Shown here piece by piece: positions 6,419 through 18,422 of a DNA stretch of 64,000 bases. Position 1 is the stretch's first letter. Each line of letters opens with the position of its first letter. The stretch is from Moritella sp. (GTDB taxonomy: Bacteria > Pseudomonadota > Gammaproteobacteria > Enterobacterales > Moritellaceae). A program made the translations under genes and the position numbers. The stretch covers positions 62,001-126,000 of the forward strand of contig NZ_JABSQR010000009.1 of the NCBI RefSeq assembly GCF_013215705.1, given 5' to 3'. The notes below the pieces were generated by a model. That model saw nothing but the letters and a program-made list of their open reading frames with translations, made no database searches and was not told where the DNA came from.

Positions 6419-6985
6419 AATTAATTTTAATCCCTTAATTGTGAGTTTAAATGCTACTGATAAATAAAATTCATTAACGATGAATGAGAAAAAAAGTAAT
6501 TACATCCTTTAATTAACAACAACTATTTCTTAATGTTAAACAACAAAGCAACACGGTTAATTATACTAATCAGATAATATTTAAATGGTATTTAGTATGC
6601 TAATACTGCATACCCAACTTGTTTACATTATTTTTAGACACAGTTTAACCCTACCATAGCGGGTATTGAGTACATATGAAGTGTGAGTGAAATCAACATA
6701 TTAAGGTACGGATTAATGAAGTGGATAAGAGTTATCTAATGCTTTAGTTTGAAGTGGTATTAGTGAAATAAAGTGAGATCTAAGTAGTGTGTACAAATGT
6801 TTATTCGTTCATCATTATGATGATTTCCTTTCTTTGGACCGATTTTTTAAATAGCCCCCTCCATTTCCGATAACTTTCAATTTCCAGCAATAGTAACGCA
6901 ACTGTGATTATGTAAAATTAAATAAAGCTGAAATGGTTTATCTTTGCCTGTTATTTTCGCCTTGAAAAAGACAACATCAATAAAA
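6419..6985. promoter_or_regulatory. AT-rich gap upstream of the EPS export operon
   Basis: 567 bases without a convincing gene, between the glycosyltransferase operon (ends 6986) and the first export gene (starts 6418). The export-operon promoter must lie here, probably with regulatory sites given its length. I found no ops element, no GEMM riboswitch core and no clear terminator for the upstream operon. Confidence 0.45.
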
Positions 6986-7471
6986 TCACCCTAATATTTT
7001 TTCAAGATTGTTTATCAATCTGATATATTCATCCGAATCATTAAGCCCACCAGAGACCAACTCATCTTTTCTATTCAATAAATCAAATAATTCGTCTTTC
7101 GATTTTGCGACATATACACCTTCTACATTAGCAAACGATTCTGATGTAGCTAGTTGGTGATCATTGCGGTGTTCATTCAGTGATGCTTTTCGAGGGAAAA
7201 TAATAATAGGTTTCTTTACTCTTAAAGCGGTTAAAATAGAACCCATTCCAGCATGCGATACTAGAACATTACATTGAGAAATATATTTTTCAAACTGTTC
7301 TGGTTCTACAGACTGAAACACTGTCATATTATCAGATTTAAATTTTGACTTACCAACTTGAGCTACAATTTGACGAACCTGATGAACCTGATTAACCGAT
7401 TGAACCCATTCATCAACACTCTCCGCTAAACGATCAAAAGGAATTTGAGTTCCGACAGTAACTAATATCAT
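6986..7471 (-). CDS. PssE/Alg13-like glycosyltransferase subunit
   Basis: A 161-residue catalytic half of a split GT-B (GT28-like) glycosyltransferase. It begins MILVTVGTQIPFDRLAESVD and carries the donor-binding stretch VSHAGMGSILTALRVKKPII followed by FPRKASLNEHRNDHQ, all typical of PssE/EpsF and Alg13. It is last in the galU operon and overlaps the PssD-like gene by 4 bases, so the two are translationally coupled. Expected to work at the inner face of the cytoplasmic membrane. The sugar transferred is not readable. Confidence 0.9.
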   Translation of the reverse strand: MILVTVGTQIPFDRLAESVDEWVQSVNQVHQVRQIVAQVGKSKFKSDNMTVFQSVEPEQFEKYISQCNVLVSHAGMGSILTALRVKKPIIIFPRKASLNEHRNDHQLATSESFANVEGVYVAKSKDELFDLLNRKDELVSGGLNDSDEYIRLINNLEKILG

Positions 7472-7917
7472 ATAACTCTTCCTATATATTGAGTACGTTT
7501 ATTCGCAAGGTGTTCCCACTGCGTAAAACTATTATGAGCGAAATACGACGCAACAAATCCTGATAATGATATTTTTTCGGAGTTCGCGATACTGTCTAAC
7601 CAAATGGTTTTTGAACCAAGTAGTCTTGCGATAATAATTGTAATTAAACCGGGTAATGCCCCCGTTGTTATAACATGTGTTGGTTTTTCTTTTCTTAATA
7701 TACTTAATAAGCCAGACACAACATTAAATAGTCGAGATATTGTATCTCGGCTGATATCACCAATAACATAGTAATTATCACTGTCAGATAACTCAGTTGG
7801 TTTTTCATAAGTGCACGCATACACCACATTATTTGATGCAAAAAGTGGTAATAAACGGCACAGTTGAACCCAGTGACCACCAGGTGAGGATATAGCTAAT
7901 ATTTTATTTTTGTTCAT
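7468..7917 (-). CDS. PssD/Alg14-like glycosyltransferase membrane partner
   Basis: A 149-residue partner of the PssE-like subunit. The N terminus has KILAISSPGGHWVQLCRLLP, the Alg14/PssD signature, and the middle has THVITTGALPGLITIIIARLLG. Alg14-type proteins recruit the catalytic subunit to the membrane and supply the acceptor side. The start overlaps the end of the GT4 gene by 14 bases, and the 3' end overlaps the PssE-like gene by 4, so all three are tightly coupled. Confidence 0.88.
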   Translation of the reverse strand: MNKNKILAISSPGGHWVQLCRLLPLFASNNVVYACTYEKPTELSDSDNYYVIGDISRDTISRLFNVVSGLLSILRKEKPTHVITTGALPGLITIIIARLLGSKTIWLDSIANSEKISLSGFVASYFAHNSFTQWEHLANKRTQYIGRVI

Positions 7918-8959
7918 TTGACAAACCCAAAAGTGATTCTTTATTTAAAAGGCTAAAATATAAGCATTCCCATTTAGGTAATACTATTTTAGACGAAAAA
8001 TGTGCTAAATAGTATTCTTTTGCTTTCCTAGTAACTTGGCAGTCACTCTCAAAGACATAGTTAAGCTTGTTTGTAATAGCGTCAATATCACCAGGCTCGA
8101 TCAAGTAACCAGTTTCACCTTCGATAATGACCTCTGGAATGCCCCCAACAGGCGTTGAAATAATAGGTATTTCGCAAGCCATAGCTTCGATGATCACCAT
8201 AGGTAATCCCTCATTATACGACGGCAAAATAAATACACTACACTCACTTAATAGTTGTGTTTTTTGTTCTATATTTACCCATCCATGATTGGTTATAGAG
8301 GCATTCATATTTAATTTATCAATAAGCTCTTGAACATATTCGTTTTCACCTGATCCACAAATATGCAAATGACAATCGTCAGGTAATTTACTAACCGCTT
8401 TGATTAGATCATATATGCCTTTTCGTGGAATAAAAGCACCTAAAAATAATATGTGATTCGTTTTACGTTTAAGGTCTTTCTTTTCAATATCAACATAGTT
8501 ATTTATCACCAATGTTTTTCTACTTGATATCGATAAAATAAATCTTTGCCAGCTATCCGATAAAACCACAAATTCATCAATCGACTTGATAAGCCAAAGA
8601 ATAAGTTTTTTACGTAAACGACCACTACTTGCATAATAATCTTTGAATTCAGAACCGTGCAGATGAACAATTGATTTGTGGTTAAATACTTTAGCAATCG
8701 CAATAAAAAGTAATTTTCTGAAAAAACTGCCTTTATACGACATATGACAGTGTAATATGAGGTCTTTTTCTTTTATACAAAAATAGAGTAATTTGAAAGT
8801 AGCGGATATAAACAGATATAAATCATGCCATTTACTTTTACCCTCGTGTGATCCTATTCGGGTATGTTTTTTGTTGTCGAATAAACCATTATCAATATAG
8901 CCCTGTATTACAGAATCTATACCACCTTTTTGAACTGTACCTAGAGTTAAAATATGCAT
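7904..8959 (-). CDS. Glycosyltransferase family 4 (GT-B)
   Basis: A 351-residue retaining GT-B enzyme of EPS repeat-unit assembly. The N-terminal domain contains SIVHLHGSEF. The C-terminal domain contains FLGAFIPRKGIYDLIKAV and the GT4 E-x7-E region (SYNEGLPMVIIEAMACE) followed by STPVGGIPEVI. The donor and acceptor sugars cannot be told. Its start is directly adjacent to the acetyltransferase stop (8960). It lies in the most AT-rich part of the locus. Confidence 0.9.
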   Translation of the reverse strand: MHILTLGTVQKGGIDSVIQGYIDNGLFDNKKHTRIGSHEGKSKWHDLYLFISATFKLLYFCIKEKDLILHCHMSYKGSFFRKLLFIAIAKVFNHKSIVHLHGSEFKDYYASSGRLRKKLILWLIKSIDEFVVLSDSWQRFILSISSRKTLVINNYVDIEKKDLKRKTNHILFLGAFIPRKGIYDLIKAVSKLPDDCHLHICGSGENEYVQELIDKLNMNASITNHGWVNIEQKTQLLSECSVFILPSYNEGLPMVIIEAMACEIPIISTPVGGIPEVIIEGETGYLIEPGDIDAITNKLNYVFESDCQVTRKAKEYYLAHFSSKIVLPKWECLYFSLLNKESLLGLSNEQK

Positions 8960-9517
8960 TTAAATATCTTCATTTAATATGTATGGGTTTTCAATTATTG
9001 AAGAGGACCCCTTATACGATATAATTTTACTTGGGTTACCCACAACCACAGCATTATCAGGCACATCTTTAGTCACAACAGCATTAGCACCAATAATTAC
9101 ATTGTTACCTATAGTTATGCCACCTAAAACACAGCATCCGGTGCCAAGATATACGTTATCGCCGATTACTGGATACTTACCTGATTTACCTGCAATTGTT
9201 ACGTTATGCACAATAGTAAAATTGCTACCAATTATTACATTAGCCCCAAAAGTTGTAGAAAATACATGGCGTATACAAAATGCTGGGCCAATATTAGCTC
9301 GATATTGAATATCAGAAACTAATACCCTTTTATAGTATATAAACATCAACTTAGGGATAAGCTGCAGTAGTTTATTGTATTCTAAATATTTAGCTAAACG
9401 CATCCAAAAACTGAATTTAAAACCTTTAACAAAAAAAATACTTTTAAGAAAAAGTAAAAAATTCACTCGGCCATGGTAACGATATAAATCAGACTTAATT
9501 AACTTAAAAACACTCAT
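8960..9517 (-). CDS. Serine acetyltransferase-like hexapeptide acyltransferase
   Basis: 185 residues with a left-handed beta-helix of hexapeptide repeats (about 75-170), including VIGDNVYLGTGCCVLGGITIGNNVIIGANAVV and DVPDNAVVVGNPSKI, characteristic of CysE/WcaF-type acetyltransferases. In this operon it most likely acetylates a sugar of the repeat unit rather than serine. The N-terminal 70 residues are basic and hydrophobic (FLLFLKSIFFVKGFKF), as in EPS-associated members. Confidence 0.85.
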   Translation of the reverse strand: MSVFKLIKSDLYRYHGRVNFLLFLKSIFFVKGFKFSFWMRLAKYLEYNKLLQLIPKLMFIYYKRVLVSDIQYRANIGPAFCIRHVFSTTFGANVIIGSNFTIVHNVTIAGKSGKYPVIGDNVYLGTGCCVLGGITIGNNVIIGANAVVTKDVPDNAVVVGNPSKIISYKGSSSIIENPYILNEDI

Positions 9518-9559
9518 AAATCATCCTTGAAATAAACATGTGAAATTGCTATGCCTCAA

Positions 9560-10561
9560 TTAAAAAACCTTACCTTGTATCGTCAAATTGGGTTTACCAA
9601 CACGCATAAATAAAGAAAGCAACAGCGTGATAAAACCTACATGCCAGGTTAATAAGGTATTAGCTGCACTTTTCATATTTTTTTTCCGCACTGAAAACAT
9701 AATAAAAATAGCAAACCAACTAGCAATAAATATCAATATCGAGCCACTAACACTAATCAGTGTAAAATAATTAACAGTGGCCAAACCAGCTAAAATTAAA
9801 GCATTGAGAATTAGCGGCATAAATAAATACCATAAATGTTTTACACATAGACTAAACCAAGGTTTACCTAAGGCACTTTTTAATAACGCACCATTGGCAA
9901 ATAGTCGGCCATTACGCCACAAACGACATATTCGCTGTAAATTTCCTTCTCTATGCCCAGTATGCATGACCGAATTTACTGGCAAACGTTTTAACAACCA
10001 ATTTTGACTCAATAACCTAACCCCTAACTCAAATTCTTCTCGTGCAAGCAGTGCCGAATGAGAGAAGTAGCCAACGCTATCAATAGCCTTTTTACGATAA
10101 AAACCACCGCCGCCTAAGTGCTTTTCATTTTTAATCAATGACATTTCTCCGTAAACGGCAGCTCGCCTTCTGTCTTCGTCTGACATATATTGGGTATCAA
10201 CCAACTTTCCTGCAACTCCCGCAACTTGTGAATTTTCACGCAAGTATTTCATTGCTTCAACAAGAAATCCCTCACAGAGTTCCATATCGCCATCAAGTAA
10301 ATACAAGTATTCACCTGAAGCATGTTGATAACCTAGTTGGGGTGCAGCACCACAACCAACATCAGCTTGATTTTCAAACTGAACAATTTTCACTGGATAT
10401 TGTTTGGCTATTTCAATGGTTTTATCTGTTGATAATGAATCAACCAAGATAATTTCACTGGCATAGGATTTAGCTTCTCCTATACACGACTCAATACACG
10501 CCGCAATATTACGCTCTTCATTTAATGCTTTAATAATAAAAGTTATTTCTATATCTTTCAT
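9560..10561 (-). CDS. Glycosyltransferase family 2 with C-terminal membrane segments
   Basis: 333 residues. The GT-A domain starts ITFIIKALNEERNIAACIESC, with VDSLSTDKTIEIA and a DxD-like YLLDGDMEL near residue 93. HTGHREGNLQRICRLWRNGR follows the catalytic domain. Two to three hydrophobic segments (about 245-315) should anchor it in the inner membrane. It is expected to add a sugar to the lipid-linked EPS intermediate; specificity is unknown. It lies in the galU operon, 32 bases downstream of the pyruvyltransferase-like gene. Confidence 0.9.
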   Translation of the reverse strand: MKDIEITFIIKALNEERNIAACIESCIGEAKSYASEIILVDSLSTDKTIEIAKQYPVKIVQFENQADVGCGAAPQLGYQHASGEYLYLLDGDMELCEGFLVEAMKYLRENSQVAGVAGKLVDTQYMSDEDRRRAAVYGEMSLIKNEKHLGGGGFYRKKAIDSVGYFSHSALLAREEFELGVRLLSQNWLLKRLPVNSVMHTGHREGNLQRICRLWRNGRLFANGALLKSALGKPWFSLCVKHLWYLFMPLILNALILAGLATVNYFTLISVSGSILIFIASWFAIFIMFSVRKKNMKSAANTLLTWHVGFITLLLSLFMRVGKPNLTIQGKVF

Positions 10562-10593
10562 CGGTGTATCCAGTTTTGTCTAAAGTCGTAAAA

Positions 10594-11703
10594 TTACGCT
10601 AATGCGTCAGCCAAAAATGTAGCTGACGAGCCTCTAAGCTCGGCCAGTTTTGTATTTACCTGTGCATAATCAATTTTCATTAACTCTTGAGTTAACTCAA
10701 CAGGGTCAACATCACCACGATAAATATGATGCGTTAGCTCTAATAACGAAAGTAAACTTTCTAGACGAGTTAAGCCTCTATTATCGTTAGGGTAATATAT
10801 AAATGGAACTTCAAACAAAATAGCAAAACAAACACAATGAAATGAATCGGTAATAACCAATTTACTTTCTTTAATATTTCGTAACCAGCTATCAACGGGC
10901 CTGTAATAATGTGAACGCCCTTTTGACGAATAATATATATTCTTCTCGGTAAAGTTTAATATTGCAGCAGCATTGTTAATAAACGCCTCAAAATCACTGT
11001 CAACATCTAATTTGTAGTAAACAAGATCGGCTGTATAATCTTCTGATTTATCACCGATAATGTCATCAAAAAAGGCACGACCAACTAATAAGGTTGGATC
11101 TAATACATGCTCAGCATTTACCATGAAGGTATTTTTACAAATATCGACACCAGATTTTTCTCTTACAGAAATAGCATCAAAAGATTGAATTTCGGTGGCA
11201 ATTTTAGCCGTATCTTCTTTATTCAATTCCCAAAAATCATTACCAAAACTTGCCGCATAAGAAATTTTTTTAACCCCCGCATCTAAAAATGCTAAAAAAT
11301 AAACTAAAGAAGAGTTACCTGTATATGACGGACGCCATACTTGATCACTACCAACAATGGCATGGCTATAACTTAAATCTGCTTGGCTAAGTTCATCAAA
11401 AGTGTGAAACGTTTTAGCACTTGTCGGCAGCCACTTATCTCTAAATTCTTGAAATATTTCAGGGTTAACAAATAAGTCATGTGTTATTTTTTGTTCTTTT
11501 AGGCCTAAATCCATCAAAATAGCTTTGATATGGCTTTTTAATTTAGCCTTCCACTTAACCTTAGCCCTTTTAGGCATAAAGTTAATATGTTCAGATTGAT
11601 AACCTAATTCATTTGTCACATAACAATGTAAAGCCGCCGCCTGTAACACTGCACCATAGTTATGGTTTGAGTAATGATAATTAACAATGCCAATTTTTTT
11701 CAT
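10594..11703 (-). CDS. Polysaccharide pyruvyl transferase family protein
   Basis: 369 residues matching the PS_pyruv_trans fold: IGIVNYHYSNHNYGAVLQA at the N terminus, AIVGSDQVWRPSYTG, KISYAASFG, and LVITDSFHCVCFAILF near the C terminus. Family members put ketal-linked pyruvate from phosphoenolpyruvate on sugars, adding negative charge. The gene follows the nitroreductase-family gene by 48 bases. The exact substrate is not visible, and some relatives in the family are not proven pyruvyltransferases. Confidence 0.88.
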   Translation of the reverse strand: MKKIGIVNYHYSNHNYGAVLQAAALHCYVTNELGYQSEHINFMPKRAKVKWKAKLKSHIKAILMDLGLKEQKITHDLFVNPEIFQEFRDKWLPTSAKTFHTFDELSQADLSYSHAIVGSDQVWRPSYTGNSSLVYFLAFLDAGVKKISYAASFGNDFWELNKEDTAKIATEIQSFDAISVREKSGVDICKNTFMVNAEHVLDPTLLVGRAFFDDIIGDKSEDYTADLVYYKLDVDSDFEAFINNAAAILNFTEKNIYYSSKGRSHYYRPVDSWLRNIKESKLVITDSFHCVCFAILFEVPFIYYPNDNRGLTRLESLLSLLELTHHIYRGDVDPVELTQELMKIDYAQVNTKLAELRGSSATFLADALA

Positions 11704-11751
11704 ATAGCCCTCTAAAGTAATTCCTTTATAAATAACCGTTTCACTCTTTAT

Positions 11752-12792
11752 TTAAATAACACGTAAAACATCGTCTAAATCACGACGGGGTGATCTAGGT
11801 ACTAGCGTTTCATCTGGTGCATAACCGATAGCAATGAGCATAATAATTCGTAACGAAGGATCTAACGCTAAAAGTTTATGGGCGGCTTTATCTGCTTTAG
11901 GTTTTACACACCAGTTCAAACAGCAAGAACTTATATTGTGTGACTTCAAGGCTAAAATAAAACTCATTGAAAATAAGCCACCATCAACATAGGGCTCATG
12001 TCGCTCTGTTGCGCCAAAAAAACAACTTGCATCAGTCAATATTACCGCGATATGTGGCGCTAAGTGACCAAAGCCAACATTACCATTTTGATGGGATAAC
12101 AATTTTTGTTTTAATACAGGATCACTGACGATGGTTACCTTTACCGGCTGTCTGTTACATGCAGAAGGTGATAATTGACTTATACGCACAACATTTTCAA
12201 GCAACTCACTAGCGACTGGCTCAGCTGAAAATGCTCTGACACTTCTACGTGCATTCATTAATAATGAAAATTGCTCACTGTAATTTATTTCATCTACATC
12301 GAGTTGTGTTATTTCACAAGGGGTGTTGTATGCGCTTCGTTCACAACTATAAGTTGTTAAAAAGGTTTCTAGCTCGTTTGTAATAACATTATTAGCATCT
12401 AGCTTGTAATCAACAATTCGATCGTAATAACTTTGCAGCGTGCCAATGGCACCACGGTAAATAGAATCTTTTTCATCAACAACTTCGGTGCGTTGCCACT
12501 TACTAATCAGTACCATTGTCGCCCGTGCTGGCGCTAAGCCAAAAAGCCTTTTAGGCCCAGGCATTACTAAGCCTTTTTCTAATTTATGATATTGAAATAA
12601 CAGCTCTGAGCTAATAATTGATCTTTTTGCATTAGCCACAGTCCAATGCATGGCTTTATAGTCTTGAGAGATATCATACAAATAGTAGCGTAGCTTAACG
12701 ACTCTCAACATTTCAGTTTTTGTACGATAATATACGCCCCATATTAAAGGAGATTTTTGTAAAATCTGTTTCAAATTACTTTTTAATGACAA
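11752..12792 (-). CDS. Nitroreductase-family flavoprotein of the EPS operon
   Basis: 346 residues. A roughly 170-residue N-terminal extension contains FQYHKLEKGLVMPGPKRLFG. The nitroreductase domain follows: NARRSVRAFSAEPV, ISQLSPSACNRQPVKVTIV (FMN-binding), YVDGGLFSMSFILALKSH and LIAIGYAPDE. Such genes often sit beside pyruvyltransferase-family genes in polysaccharide clusters, but the reaction is, to my knowledge, not established. It is probably FMN-dependent and cytosolic. The sequence supports the fold but not a substrate. Confidence 0.85.
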   Translation of the reverse strand: MSLKSNLKQILQKSPLIWGVYYRTKTEMLRVVKLRYYLYDISQDYKAMHWTVANAKRSIISSELLFQYHKLEKGLVMPGPKRLFGLAPARATMVLISKWQRTEVVDEKDSIYRGAIGTLQSYYDRIVDYKLDANNVITNELETFLTTYSCERSAYNTPCEITQLDVDEINYSEQFSLLMNARRSVRAFSAEPVASELLENVVRISQLSPSACNRQPVKVTIVSDPVLKQKLLSHQNGNVGFGHLAPHIAVILTDASCFFGATERHEPYVDGGLFSMSFILALKSHNISSCCLNWCVKPKADKAAHKLLALDPSLRIIMLIAIGYAPDETLVPRSPRRDLDDVLRVI

Positions 12793-12823
12793 AATTTAAC
12801 TCCTATAAATTTACAATTAAAAT

Positions 12824-12853
12824 AACTGTTCAGATATTATTTTCTGAACAGTT
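12824..12853 (-). other. Inverted repeat at the wzx stop codon
   Basis: Perfect 10-base arms AACTGTTCAG (12824-12833) and CTGAACAGTT (12844-12853) around a 10-base loop that contains the wzx stop. On the minus strand the stem is followed by ATTTTAATT. It may be a weak terminator or attenuator between wzx and the nitroreductase-family gene. Confidence 0.45.
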
Positions 12854-14303
12854 TTAGTTTTTTAAAACCACCAATAATCAGAAACCATGAAATAGCGAGT
12901 ACAGCAATTAAAGAGTAAGTTAGAAGAATACTATCAAAAGAAGATATAACGATTGCAGCAACTACATGAAACAAAATTAGCGGCATTATATTAATGGTAA
13001 GTACAGATAGCAGTGATTGTACTTGTTGCACACACCTTAATAATAATCCCATAGCGACAACGTTCATAAACGTAGAGGCTATGGCATATATAAGCACTGT
13101 TTTAGCTAAATCGTAATCTAGGTAAATACACAGAAGTAACGTGCCAATTCGAACGAAAAAGTTACCAACATGAAAGATTAAACGCGTATGTTGTTTATTC
13201 ATCACATCGAATAAACCACCAAATGCTTGTACCAACAGTGTCGACATAGCAAAGTACGATAAAAAGCTGGCTAAGACTCCGGCATCCCCCCACTTGTCGC
13301 CTAAAACAATAACAAATAAAGAATCACCGACAACCGATAACACGGAAAAAGGGATCAATAAAAAAGCAAATAGTACCGTAAAAAAAACATTGGTATTTTT
13401 CTTGATTTTATCTATATCATCATTAGCTTTATCTTCTGAAATTTTTTGCATAAATGTTTTTGATATGGCACTACCAAGCGCTGTAACCGGTATATTAACC
13501 AAGCGATTAGCGATGGCAAACAACCCTGCGGCTACGGAAGAAAAGTAAGCGGCAACAATTATAACCGGTAGCTGTAACATGCTATTAATTAACAGCATTG
13601 AAGGAGTATTGTATTGCAGATAACGCTTATATTTAGTAACAATAAAACCATTGGATATAGTTGTATTTTTCTGACCTTGATAACGCTTTAATGTTGGTAG
13701 TAAATAGAAAATAGCGAACACACTTGCAATCACTCTCGCTAAGATCAAATTACCAACAAAGGCATAACCACTAAAGCCACTTAAAATAGCAATACCTCTA
13801 TCAGATATCCCCTCGACTACTTTCGAGGTGCTAACCTTACCAAAAACCTTAACTCGAACGCCCAAATAAGTAATAGTGACATAAATACTTTGTAATAAAA
13901 CTAACAGTGGAATCGAATATACAATTAAAGGATTAGATTTAATCTTTAACAAAGAGACTACATCTTCATTAAAAAAATAGAGCGCTATACTGATAAACAA
14001 ACAAAAAACGTAAGTAAGAGATAAAGACAACCTAAATATCTTAATAGCTTCGTCTTCGCTTTTTGGAATTAAAATAGCTAAGTGCAGACTAAGCGTAGAG
14101 AGCGTCGCCAAAATAAGGCTTATCGCAAGTAAAGATGAAAACTCACCGTAGGCTTCTACGCTATATAGACGGGTAATAATTGGGATCGCAATAATTCCAA
14201 TTATTTGACCAATAGTATTTCCAACTAAAAGTTTACTTGTGTTTTTAATAAAATTTGAAGGCATATGTGTCATTCCTAATCTATCACTGAATATCTGGAT
14301 CAT
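12837..14303 (-). CDS. Wzx-type oligosaccharide flippase
   Basis: A 488-residue polytopic membrane protein with about 12-14 hydrophobic segments. Near the N terminus it has FIKNTSKLLVGNTIGQIIGIIAIPIITRLYSVEAYGEFS, typical of the MOP/PST flippase family. It moves undecaprenyl-linked repeat units across the inner membrane. The first Met may not be the true start; the Met at residue 14 (MPSNFIKNTS) is a good alternative. The 5' end overlaps wzy by 20 bases. Confidence 0.92.
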   Translation of the reverse strand: MIQIFSDRLGMTHMPSNFIKNTSKLLVGNTIGQIIGIIAIPIITRLYSVEAYGEFSSLLAISLILATLSTLSLHLAILIPKSEDEAIKIFRLSLSLTYVFCLFISIALYFFNEDVVSLLKIKSNPLIVYSIPLLVLLQSIYVTITYLGVRVKVFGKVSTSKVVEGISDRGIAILSGFSGYAFVGNLILARVIASVFAIFYLLPTLKRYQGQKNTTISNGFIVTKYKRYLQYNTPSMLLINSMLQLPVIIVAAYFSSVAAGLFAIANRLVNIPVTALGSAISKTFMQKISEDKANDDIDKIKKNTNVFFTVLFAFLLIPFSVLSVVGDSLFVIVLGDKWGDAGVLASFLSYFAMSTLLVQAFGGLFDVMNKQHTRLIFHVGNFFVRIGTLLLCIYLDYDLAKTVLIYAIASTFMNVVAMGLLLRCVQQVQSLLSVLTINIMPLILFHVVAAIVISSFDSILLTYSLIAVLAISWFLIIGGFKKLKLFRK

Positions 14304-15579
14304 TCATCATTTCAGTTCGAAATAACCACATGAAATAAAGTAATACGCCACCAATACTGATACACCAGGAAGCAGTAAAAAAGCTAATTGGTAATAACGA
14401 TAATGTAAATGACATTAAAAAAGCATATGTTGCAGCGGAGTATGGATCTGTATTATCGGTTTTTCTGTAGTATTGAAAATATGTTTTCATAGACTGAAAA
14501 GTAAACACTATCCATATTATAAATCCAAAAGGCCCAAACTGAAATAAGGACGAATAAGCACCCGCATCTACAATATTGTTATGATCTTCTGAATTTAATA
14601 TATTGTTTATTGAACCATTAGAAGACATAGAACCTATACCCAACCCTCCACTTTGAATATATGTATCATAGAAATGTGACACTGTTTCAAAACGAACATA
14701 GATATTACTTTCTGAATCATGCAGTGACATATTTGATAAACCTTCGATATGTTCAGAAAAAACAATTGGAAATACGAATGCAACAGCTAAAAAAACCATC
14801 ACATATAATCTAAATGATTTCTTTGTCAGCCCTTTAATATACATAAGTGTAAGAGTTGCAACGCCCATAGCAAGAAACCCCATGCGACTCTCCATAATAA
14901 ATGCTTGAACTAAAAATAATAATCCAGCGGTTATCAATAAAATTTGGTTTTCTTTTTTAGTTCTGCTCCCTGTTATCAAAAGGGCTACTACAGCAACAAA
15001 ACCAAAGATCACCTCATTTTTAAGAAGAACAATTCGTCTTACATCGAGTGAAAAAAAAGCGGAACGCCTTTGATATTCATCTAGGAAGGCCAAGTTACTG
15101 ATTCGATCTATTATCAGTAAAGTAGATATTAATATTGCAACCCATATAAACGACCAAATAATTTCTTTACTCGTATATTTAAAAAAATACATAAAATAAA
15201 AAACAAATATTGGAGAAAAAACATAAAGAGAGGGAAGCCAATCCTTCATAGGTTTCACAAATACGAAATTAGCAGATATAAAAGACACAACAAAAAAAAC
15301 AAAAAAGGCCAAAATCGGATAGTAAAAACTCTTAATTTCACAAAAATCTTTATCTCTAGCTAATCTAAATACAGATAAAAATAAAAAACAGATCATCGAA
15401 AAAGCGAATAGCCAAGCGCCTAACACCGTATCAAAGCCAATTAACTTTGTAATAAGACCATCACTTTCAAAAACAATTAAGCACATCAAAGTCACTTTGA
15501 AATAAGAAATTTTATTTTCTTTAATAGAATTAAATAAATTGTTTTCTGGTTTATCAATACGCTTTAAATCAGTCATCAT
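14284..15579 (-). CDS. Wzy-type polysaccharide polymerase (O-antigen polymerase/ligase family)
   Basis: A 431-residue polytopic membrane protein with about 10-12 hydrophobic segments and a large loop before the last helices (GGLGIGSMSSNGSINNILNSEDHNNIVDAGAYS). MESRMGFLAMG matches the conserved R-containing segment of Wzy_C proteins. It polymerises repeat units in the periplasm. It lies between the ugd remnant and wzx, overlapping each slightly. A second family member is at 21737-23041. Confidence 0.85.
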   Translation of the reverse strand: MMTDLKRIDKPENNLFNSIKENKISYFKVTLMCLIVFESDGLITKLIGFDTVLGAWLFAFSMICFLFLSVFRLARDKDFCEIKSFYYPILAFFVFFVVSFISANFVFVKPMKDWLPSLYVFSPIFVFYFMYFFKYTSKEIIWSFIWVAILISTLLIIDRISNLAFLDEYQRRSAFFSLDVRRIVLLKNEVIFGFVAVVALLITGSRTKKENQILLITAGLLFLVQAFIMESRMGFLAMGVATLTLMYIKGLTKKSFRLYVMVFLAVAFVFPIVFSEHIEGLSNMSLHDSESNIYVRFETVSHFYDTYIQSGGLGIGSMSSNGSINNILNSEDHNNIVDAGAYSSLFQFGPFGFIIWIVFTFQSMKTYFQYYRKTDNTDPYSAATYAFLMSFTLSLLPISFFTASWCISIGGVLLYFMWLFRTEMMNDPDIQ

Positions 15580-16253
15580 TAATCACTACCAAACAAATCA
15601 CGCGTACAAACCTTATCAACCACGTCTTGCAGCGCTGTTTCCATACGGTTCGATACAATCACATCTGACATGGCTTTAAACGCGTTAAGATCAGTAATCA
15701 CTTGAGAGTTAAAGAAGGAATCTTCATTTAACACCGGTTCATAAATAATCACTTCAATGCCTTTCGCTTTAATCCGTTTCATCACGCCTTGAATAGACGA
15801 TGCGCGGAAATTATCCGAGCCAGTTTTCATGATCAGGCGATAAATACCCACCACTTTGGGCTGCTTATTGATAATAGAAAAAGCGATGTGGTCTTTAGGT
15901 AAGCAATAACCACCATAACCAAATGAGGGGTTGTTGTAGTGATTACCGATACGTGGGTCGAGTCCAACCGCTTCTACTGATGAAGTATCAAAATAATTAT
16001 TATCTGTCGGCGTCGCAATAATGACATAATCCGCATTTTCGTAAGCGTCATATTTATTGGTCGTCGCGGTTAAGTTTAAGGCTTTATTGGCGAGGAAGTC
16101 TTCTATTTCGGCATCCGCAATCGGTGATTTTCGGTCGTTAATTAATACGACTTTATCGGCAATAATATCAAACGCTATCACGTTATTATGCTGGGCTAAT
16201 AACACCGCATTCGACAGATCAACGTAGCCAGTCCCTGCTATCGTAATATTCAT
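15579..16253 (-). pseudogene. ugd: UDP-glucose 6-dehydrogenase remnant with in-frame internal deletions
   Basis: Only 224 codons against about 388 in intact Ugd. Residues 1-96 match the Rossmann domain; the reading then jumps at about 15965 straight to the GLDPRIGNHYNNPSFGYGGY catalytic segment, losing roughly 160 residues. A second gap near 15890, just after YCLPKD, removes about 25 more, and a few residues are missing near PTDNNYFDTSS. The catalytic Cys is kept, but the dinucleotide motif GTGYVGL reads GTGYVDL (Gly to Asp). The frame stays open to a normal C terminus (TRDLFGSD). It cannot fold as a full dehydrogenase, so I call it a pseudogene. An assembly artefact is unlikely to give several in-frame gaps but is not excluded. 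Confidence 0.9.
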
Positions 16254-16274
16254 AAACGTCCCTGATGTATAAAG

Positions 16275-16325
16275 ATGACAGACTCCGCTGTCATTTATTG
16301 CCAGTAGTTTTGTCTAAAACTACTG
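16275..16325 (-). other. Two consecutive hairpins in the galU-ugd gap
   Basis: CAGTAGTTTT (16302-16311) pairs perfectly with AAAACTACTG (16316-16325) around a 4-base loop. ATGACAG (16275-16281) pairs with CTGTCAT (16288-16294) around a 6-base loop. Neither has a good U-tract on the minus strand. They may stabilise the galU message 3' end or attenuate downstream transcription. Confidence 0.5.
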
Positions 16326-16341
16326 TGTCTAACCTAAATTA

Positions 16342-17211
16342 TTATGATTGCTTTTCGGTTTTCTTTTTACCTAATTCTGCTTTAGAATCTTGCAGATATA
16401 CGTTTTCGTAGCAGTAGTTGATCGCATCGATGTAGCCCTCTACTGAGCCACAGTCAAACCGCTTACCTTTAAATTTGTATGCAATGACACACCCTTCTTG
16501 CGCTTGTTTTAATAATGCGTCGGTGATTTGGATCTCTCCCCCTTTACCGGGTTGGGTATTCTCAATGTACTCAAAGATATCTGGCGTCAGAATATAACGG
16601 CCAATAATCGCAAGGTTGCTTGGTTCAGTACCTTTCGCGGGTTTTTCTACCATGTCAGTAACACGGTAGAGATCGTCACGAATTTGGTCACCGGCAATAA
16701 CACCATACTTATGAATATCATCAGCAGGTACCTCTTCCACGGCAATAATCGAACAACGGAATTGCTTGTACAGTGCCACCATTTGTTCGAGCACGCCTTT
16801 GCCTTCATTGACACAAAGGTCATCGGCAAGTACCACCGCAAACGGTTCGTCACCCACAAGTTCCCGTCCCGTTAAAATGGCATGACCTAAACCTTTCATT
16901 TCACTTTGACGAATGTAAGTAAAGTGCGCCGATTCGATAATTTCACGAATATCATCAAGTAACTCTTCTTTGTTGGTACCCTTGATTTGATCTTCTAACT
17001 CGTAGTTTTTATCAAAATGGTCCATTAATGAATGTTTGCCGCGACCCGTCACAATACACATGCCGTTCATACCCGCTTCAATCGCTTCATCAACGCCGTA
17101 TTCAATTAACGGCTTATTGACGACAGGCATCATTTCTTTTGGCATTGATTTGGTGGCGGGTAAAAAACGTGTGCCGTAACCAGCTGCAGGGAATAAACAT
17201 TTTTTGATCAT
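16342..17211 (-). CDS. galU: UTP--glucose-1-phosphate uridylyltransferase
   Basis: Makes UDP-glucose from UTP and glucose-1-phosphate for EPS and other glycans. 289 residues, normal length. The nucleotidyltransferase signature is FPAAGYGTRFLPATKSMPKEMMPVVNKPLIEYGVDEA, followed by GLGHAILTGRELVGDEPFAVVLADDLC and GKGGEIQITDALL. It is first in the minus-strand EPS operon, with an ops element 55-70 bases upstream of its start. The downstream ugd is broken, so UDP-glucuronate supply from this locus is doubtful. Confidence 0.96.
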   Translation of the reverse strand: MIKKCLFPAAGYGTRFLPATKSMPKEMMPVVNKPLIEYGVDEAIEAGMNGMCIVTGRGKHSLMDHFDKNYELEDQIKGTNKEELLDDIREIIESAHFTYIRQSEMKGLGHAILTGRELVGDEPFAVVLADDLCVNEGKGVLEQMVALYKQFRCSIIAVEEVPADDIHKYGVIAGDQIRDDLYRVTDMVEKPAKGTEPSNLAIIGRYILTPDIFEYIENTQPGKGGEIQITDALLKQAQEGCVIAYKFKGKRFDCGSVEGYIDAINYCYENVYLQDSKAELGKKKTEKQS

Positions 17212-17765
17212 GATATGTACTCTCTAGTAAGGTTAAGACATGACTCTAGGTAAAGTTAAACATTCGGCCACGCTACCGCTATTATTTGTAATTTTACAAA
17301 ACCGCTAAAACAAACGTTTACGCTGCATATTTAATACATACGTTATTATATAAAACAGAAACGCATTTACTCGCTCATAAACAGAGCCTTTAACAACAAC
17401 TAAATTCATCAACTAAGACTCTCTAAATTGTCTATTAACGTGACAAAGATAAATCACCAGCGCCATAAATACGTTACAGCACACGCATCAAACTGTCTAT
17501 AGTTCAAAGACATATATAGCGACAGGTATGTTACAGAAAGATTAAAACACCCAATTACTTAACGTCATAACCCAACATCACCAGCGCATTAGTTGACATT
17601 TCTAAATTAATTTTCAATTAATCATCACGTCTGCCAAATACGGAATAATCGCCTGATATAGTATTAGATAAGTTTGAGTGTTTGGGATGATTTACTAATA
17701 TGCTATGCTTTTTCTACTATTATTTTAGCTATGATTTGAGCTGACAGAATGGATCTTTATAATTC
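17212..17765. promoter_or_regulatory. Divergent control region between galU and lapG-like genes
   Basis: 554 bases without a gene. On the minus side it holds the ops element (17266-17280), preceded by a small palindrome TTGTAA-AA-TTACAA, and must hold the galU operon promoter. On the plus side a TTGACA at 17593-17598 is a possible -35 with no good -10 at standard spacing. AT-rich throughout. I saw no riboswitch core. Confidence 0.45.
17266..17280 (-). promoter_or_regulatory. ops element (RfaH recruitment site) in the galU leader
   Basis: The minus strand reads AGCGGTAGCGTGGCC. This contains GCGGTAGCGTG, 11 of the 12 bases of the enterobacterial ops consensus GGCGGTAGCGTG. It lies in the 5' leader of a long polysaccharide operon, exactly where RfaH-dependent ops elements are found. 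RNA polymerase should pause here and load RfaH, which suppresses termination over the roughly 10-kb operon. Confidence 0.8.
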
Positions 17766-18422
17766 ATGATTTCTAAACACCTGTATTTACCCTGGTTGAT
17801 TATCGCGTTAAGCACTTCTCCAGCCACCGCATATATCAGCCAATCTTTTAGTTATGATTTTTATCACCAATTAGCATTGGAATATGGTGATGATGCCACT
17901 GCAAGAGCTAAACGCTGGCAGTCACTGCTCGAATCATCAAAATTAAGCTCGGAGTGGGATAAAGTGAATAAAATAAATAATTTTTTTAATCGTGAAATTA
18001 TTTACAAAACCGATAGGGAATTATGGAAAAAACATGACTATTGGGCTTCACCAGCCGAAACCATTGGTCAAGGCATGGGAGATTGTGAAGATTTTGTGAT
18101 TGCTAAATTCTTTAGCTTGATCGCGTTAGGCATCCCTGAAGACAAACTACGCTTAATGTACGTTCGCCATCTCAAGGTTAATCAGCCGCACATGGTATTG
18201 TTATATACCGAGAACAAAACAGCAAAAACGGTGGTATTAGACAATTTTAATCCACAGATATTACCGACCAGTTTGCGTCGAGATTTAAAACCGATTTACA
18301 GCTTTAACGGCCAAGGTCTATGGACAGCAAAGGCAAAAAGCCGAGGGAAAAAAGTAACCAATAGTCGCGGCGTATCGGCATGGCGAGATCTTGTGACAAA
18401 AATTGAAAAAAATAATATTTAA
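17766..18422 (+). CDS. LapG-like periplasmic cysteine protease (BTLCP family)
   Basis: 218 residues with a signal peptide ending near residue 22 (PATA). Bacterial transglutaminase-like Cys protease with catalytic Cys107 (GQGMGDCEDF), His142 (QPHMVLL) and Asp159 (VVLDNF). In Pseudomonas, LapG cuts the N-terminal anchor of the giant adhesin LapA and is held inactive by LapD when c-di-GMP is high. The LapD-like gene follows after 106 bases. No LapA-like adhesin or its type I exporter is in the window, so the substrate is unknown. Confidence 0.92.
   Translation: MISKHLYLPWLIIALSTSPATAYISQSFSYDFYHQLALEYGDDATARAKRWQSLLESSKLSSEWDKVNKINNFFNREIIYKTDRELWKKHDYWASPAETIGQGMGDCEDFVIAKFFSLIALGIPEDKLRLMYVRHLKVNQPHMVLLYTENKTAKTVVLDNFNPQILPTSLRRDLKPIYSFNGQGLWTAKAKSRGKKVTNSRGVSAWRDLVTKIEKNNI

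Follow-up and report, generated by a model that had tools for sequence, protein, structure and literature searches.

A reduced ugd gene with an open reading frame, beside a polysaccharide cassette in Moritella sp., is very probably the decaying remnant of one of three paralogues

The window (the whole stretch of Moritella sp. DNA that was analysed, 64,000 nucleotides) carries a galU gene, a shortened ugd gene and a polysaccharide cassette on its minus strand, with the following features:

16342..17211, minus strand: galU, intact (TIGR01099, 405.5 bits against a cut-off of 326.8)
15579..16253, minus strand: reduced ugd, an open frame of 224 amino acids, recognized by its ORF, by library matches and by alignment to the sister orthologues
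14284..15579, minus strand: wzy-like gene (Pfam Wzy_C, 29.1 bits, just missing the cut-off of 31.7)
6764..15579, minus strand: polysaccharide cassette absent from the sister genomes G003 and G010; collinearity ends at the ugd stop codon and near 6764
6986..7917, minus strand: split pair of PssE-like and PssD-like glycosyltransferase genes, below the NCBIfam cut-offs

The reduced ugd consists of 224 codons and a stop codon, uninterrupted. An earlier note on this DNA had described it as cut by in-frame internal deletions yet still open, which both the ORF and the alignment to the sister genes bear out. The intact reference, at the galU-ugd place of G003 and G010, has 388 codons, of which 164 are gone from the window gene (42% of its length, much of the catalytic core included). 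Relative to both sisters, 12 nt (4 codons), 396 nt (132 codons) and 84 nt (28 codons) are missing, each length being a multiple of three, and the alignment of the window protein with the best solved Ugd chain falls into three parts (residues 1-99, 91-122, and 120-224). Alignment to intact Ugd proteins, which the earlier note had proposed, confirms the three losses and revises their sizes: the note listed the two large gaps and overlooked the 4-codon gap after TPTD; its estimate of about 160 residues for the first gap fits the sum of all three rather than that gap, and the gap that it placed after YCLPKD is real, at 28 codons instead of about 25. The junctions are as follows:

16001..16002, minus strand: junction of the 12-nt deletion, with no exact repeat
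15966..15969, minus strand: junction of the 396-nt deletion, with an exact repeat of 2 bases only
15891..15897, minus strand: junction of the 84-nt deletion, with a 7-base direct repeat in G003 (6 bases in G010), of which one copy is left

Two copies of this last repeat flank the 84-nt stretch in the sister sequences, and its loss is consistent with replication slippage between them. The BLAST pieces overlap by 8 and 7 bases at the two large junctions, which had suggested repeats at both; the exact check gave 2 and 7, and slippage is therefore proposed for one junction only. The gaps are indeed in frame, as the earlier note stated, but its view of independent, stepwise losses does not follow from a single genome, as a single complex event also fits. 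In addition to the deletions, the third glycine of the dinucleotide motif (Gly12) is changed to Asp. All 20 of the genus's other ugd copies have the glycine, as do 79 of 80 sequences from other genera (the remaining row has a gap), so that the substitution previously read in GTGYVGL is upheld.

A comparison with relatives, also proposed in the earlier note, was run on the sister genomes G003 and G010, both of which have an intact ugd of 388 codons. The order of galU and ugd is shared by the window and both sisters, as are the neighbouring genes: wcaJ, a ligase-like gene, a repeat protein, a GGDEF/EAL-like gene and a protease-like gene (the names galU and wcaJ were checked against libraries, the others were given by reading of the sequence). 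The aligned pieces of the shared stretch are 89-96% identical with G003 and 85.5-94.5% with G010; those that hold the retained ugd, the longest of which includes galU, have 95-96% (G003) and 86-89% (G010) DNA identity. In a tree of 21 ugd copies the window gene groups with the G003 and G010 copies at 100/100, and the protein branch is 0.034 for the window ugd and 0.0027 for its G003 sister. Both other genomes that carry the clade of the window ugd have the orthologue intact, with collinear flanks. The setting was called otherwise normal in the earlier note, in keeping with the intact galU next to the reduced gene. The largest other coding indels measure 12 nt (G003) and 21 nt (G010), in a count that covers the inside of the aligned pieces and leaves out the gaps between them. 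No other gene in the stretch shared with the sisters has a comparable loss, the repeat protein (20785-21660) excepted, which exceeds the window version by 57 codons in G003 and by 26 in G010, presumably from a difference in repeat number. A tandem repeat of approximately 19 residues occurs in this protein (plus strand, 291 aa) as well as in its counterparts in the two sister genomes, at loci L037 (4172-5218, minus strand, 348 aa) and L038 (3592-4545, minus strand, 317 aa).

A published alignment of nucleotide-sugar dehydrogenases names, in the available part of the paper, 18 invariant residues (PMC4794789). When these are mapped by numbering onto the window ugd, 8 are kept, 1 is changed (Gly12) and 9 are lost, Glu201, Lys204, and Asn208 among them; the same part of that paper reports that an E201D change in pneumococcus leads to loss of the capsule, and describes a helix making intersubunit contacts, which falls in the deleted part of the window protein. 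The catalytic cysteine is still present, and one Lys-Asp after it survives through the 7-base repeat; the equivalent of Asp264 is counted as kept for this reason, although the aligner used for conserved columns scores that column as lost. Among 136 columns conserved at ≥98% in 100 other sequences, the window ugd is deleted at 62 and changed at 1.

Against TIGR03026 (cut-off 189.8) the window ugd reaches 143.7 bits in three pieces, below the cut-off, and the two full-length copies of the same genome score 332.9 and 334.3 bits, above it. The equivalog NF011631 (cut-off 757) gives 309.7 bits for the window ugd, and 675.9 and 673.7 bits for the full-length copies; as these also miss the cut-off, it does not separate them from the window gene. 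The matched profile positions are 1-101 of 187 for PF03721, 39-77 of 94 for PF00984 and 1-78 of 103 for PF03720, and in the full-length copies 1-181, 2-93, and 1-76 or 1-79, respectively. About half of the NAD-domain and central-domain profiles is therefore unmatched, and the third domain is as complete as in the full-length copies. An AlphaFold2 model of the 224-aa protein (alignment of 30, mean pLDDT 74.7, pTM 0.49) has high local confidence at residues 1-80 and most of 121-219, and pLDDT below 50 at 53 of 224 residues, with longer stretches at 82-119 (the cysteine loop), 142-151 and 220-224. It shows no sign of a formed active site, and a model of such a deletion form is weak evidence. Judged from the sequence, it is very unlikely that this gene encodes a working UDP-glucose dehydrogenase. 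As in a pseudogene or gene remnant, essential residues are gone while the orthologues are intact; the frame, open over 224 codons, is not interrupted.

Substitutions in the retained codons were assigned to branches. Codon changes on the window branch number 5 nonsynonymous and 11 synonymous, or 10 if the stop codon is left aside; the G003 branch has 1 and 3, and 2 and 2 are unassigned. The 5:10 ratio on the window branch departs from the neutral expectation of 523 to 149 sites (p = 0.0003), and matches that of the intact sisters over the same codons (16:37; Fisher p = 1.0). It lies above galU (0:11) and within the range of the four other neighbouring control genes on the same branch, wcaJ (6:21), ligase-like (5:31), protease-like (1:7) and GGDEF/EAL-like (11:13). 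Two of the five nonsynonymous changes affect sites that are fixed in the genus, Gly12 and Tyr380; at the latter, 73 of 80 sequences from outside the genus have Tyr and 7 have Phe. Between G003 and G010, the part that is deleted in the window is more conserved (3:46) than the part that was kept (16:37). As the ratio resembles that of the intact sisters and the controls, the substitutions do not demonstrate relaxed selection; the decay may be recent, or some constraint may be left.

Two further ugd genes are located on contig C9 of the same genome, found by the genome-wide search that the earlier note had suggested. Each has full length (388 aa) and is followed by an NAD-dependent-epimerase-like gene (below all NCBIfam cut-offs); past one of them there is a second galU. 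The suggestion that another copy may supply the activity is thus backed by two full-length candidates. The 11 genomes of the genus contain 21 ugd genes, 20 of which encode 388 aa and one 224 aa; the reduced form therefore occurs in 1 of 11 genomes, and the family-wide search took in the same 11. A 450-aa match in G005 with 33% identity was left out of the ugd count. One ugd clade is common to all 11 genomes; beyond it, 8 of the 10 other genomes have one more copy, from differing clades, and 2 have none. Only the window genome has three copies, two of them beyond the shared clade and the reduced gene one of these two, the other 10 holding one or two each. Near a full-length ugd (locus L036, 10055-10949), a pair of short ORFs that overlap each other lies between glycan genes and, from its sequence, looks like pieces of one transposase.

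Taken together, the window ugd is very probably what is left of one of three paralogues, no longer catalytic, in decay and dispensable through redundancy. The two full-length genes elsewhere in the genome would have made this copy dispensable, after which it would have lost its 164 codons by three deletions, one of them possibly by slippage at the 7-base repeat. That the loss is seen in the only genome with two copies beyond the common clade fits redundancy as the reason why it was tolerated, this being one case. All deletions keep the frame; selection against polar effects on wzy plausibly accounts for this, as does chance.

A refinement that is compatible with this reading holds that the frame stays open only for the downstream wzy, the expression of which would need translation through ugd. 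We regard this as a real, if tentative, possibility. The wzy start codon and the ugd stop codon share one base, and promoter-like sites are no commoner than in shuffled sequence in the region 14000-17900 (11, against a mean of 15.6). This makes polar effects plausible, but one such site on the coding strand lies within ugd itself (16027-15999, 9/12). Every ugd deletion is in frame as this refinement predicts, yet random, independent lengths would all keep the frame in 1 case in 27, and so small a number of events does not set selection apart from chance. In-frame indels are in any case usual in translated genes (of the coding indels in the aligned pieces, 8 of 10 and 13 of 13 keep the frame, the 12-nt ugd gap counted). 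The earlier note had proposed that translational coupling to wzy was kept; the overlap is present in the window, but neither sister shows it: the ORF listed next abuts ugd in G003 and starts 100 nt further on in G010.

A second explanation, which we consider unlikely, is that uronic acid disappeared from the polymer and left ugd to decay unused. In its favour, the cassette beside ugd is unlike those of G003 and G010. As the cassette breakpoint coincides with the ugd stop codon, galU-ugd seems, from the sequence comparison, to form the constant border of a polysaccharide locus that can be exchanged, its inner cassette varying from species to species. A WcaJ-type protein is the initiating transferase (552.6 bits, cut-off 410.75). 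At 10594-12792, a polysaccharide pyruvyl transferase adjoins a nitroreductase-like protein (346 aa, TTG start). What speaks against loss of the uronic acid is that two full-length ugd genes are still in the genome, and that the cassette includes the PssE-like (91.8 bits, cut-off 120) and PssD-like (85.9 bits, cut-off 110) pair, each of which also matches the beta-1,4-glucuronosyltransferase WelK, all below the cut-offs. The NCBIfam names of the PssD/PssE-like families also carry Cps14F/G, which we take to be a galactosyltransferase. In Rhizobium, PssDE transfers glucuronate to glucose, according to the available part of the source (PMC7589315). The earlier suggestion that the polymer may have lost a uronic acid is consequently unsupported, as the C9 copies remain and the gene pair, though below the cut-offs, hints at the opposite; glucuronate may still be used in the polymer, with the C9 copies supplying the UDP-GlcA.

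A third explanation is that the shortened protein has been retained for a role other than catalysis; it might bind NAD or a nucleotide sugar, join Ugd oligomers or act as a scaffold for the polysaccharide machinery. The open frame, three out of three deletions being in frame, the low nonsynonymous to synonymous ratio and the confident modelling of residues 1-80 and most of 121-219 (142-151 being below 50) are all compatible with it. We nevertheless consider it distinctly improbable, since the form is present in 1 of 11 genomes only, the matches to the NAD and central domain profiles leave about half of each uncovered, Asp replaces the third glycine of the dinucleotide motif, the helix described as making intersubunit contacts in the available part of PMC4794789 is deleted, and substitutions that predate the deletions also explain the low ratio. 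In the stronger version, a maintained "mini-Ugd" would bind NAD or a nucleotide sugar and modulate the full-length Ugd or the Wzy machinery, the deletions having been selected for it; this is very improbable. An assembly artefact, in which a full-length ugd collapsed at short repeats, is scarcely credible: the draft genome has 58 contigs and one junction has a 7-base repeat, but exact repeats of 0, 2, and 7 bases would be too short for assembly collapse, the copy has substitutions of its own (5 nonsynonymous and 11 synonymous, the stop codon counted), and it lies at C6:77582-78253, away from the edge of a contig that runs to at least position 126000.

The window ugd belongs to the family of the enterobacterial/streptococcal type UDP-glucose 6-dehydrogenases (PRK15057/NF011631; 3PHL, presumably a Klebsiella-type chain, and 1DLI, presumably a streptococcal-type chain), with which all three retained pieces align. 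What sets it apart from these is the loss of the latter half of the NAD domain, of the helix at the dimer contact and of half the central domain. A known parallel is the pneumococcal cps3 locus, in which, according to the available part of the report, pgm is truncated, galU is dispensable, and a homologue elsewhere supplies the precursor (PMC3182177). The likeness, as far as that part goes, is that a sugar-precursor gene of the cluster is damaged or dispensable with a homologue elsewhere; the cps3 pgm is hurt by truncation or a stop codon, whereas the window ugd is shortened internally and remains open, and dispensability was established by mutants for cps3, whereas for the window ugd it would follow from the paralogues. 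A search of literature titles and abstract openings, with most subscription journals outside its reach, found no reduced ugd of this form.

Decay of a redundant paralogue is of an ordinary kind here, in one of 11 genomes. It offers a clean, small case of how the presence of further copies can let a sugar-precursor gene bordering an exchangeable locus decay. It also cautions that an open frame matching Ugd need not mean an enzyme. If it is true that coupling to wzy caused the in-frame bias, the locus would be a natural test of how polarity shapes the decay of pseudogenes within operons.
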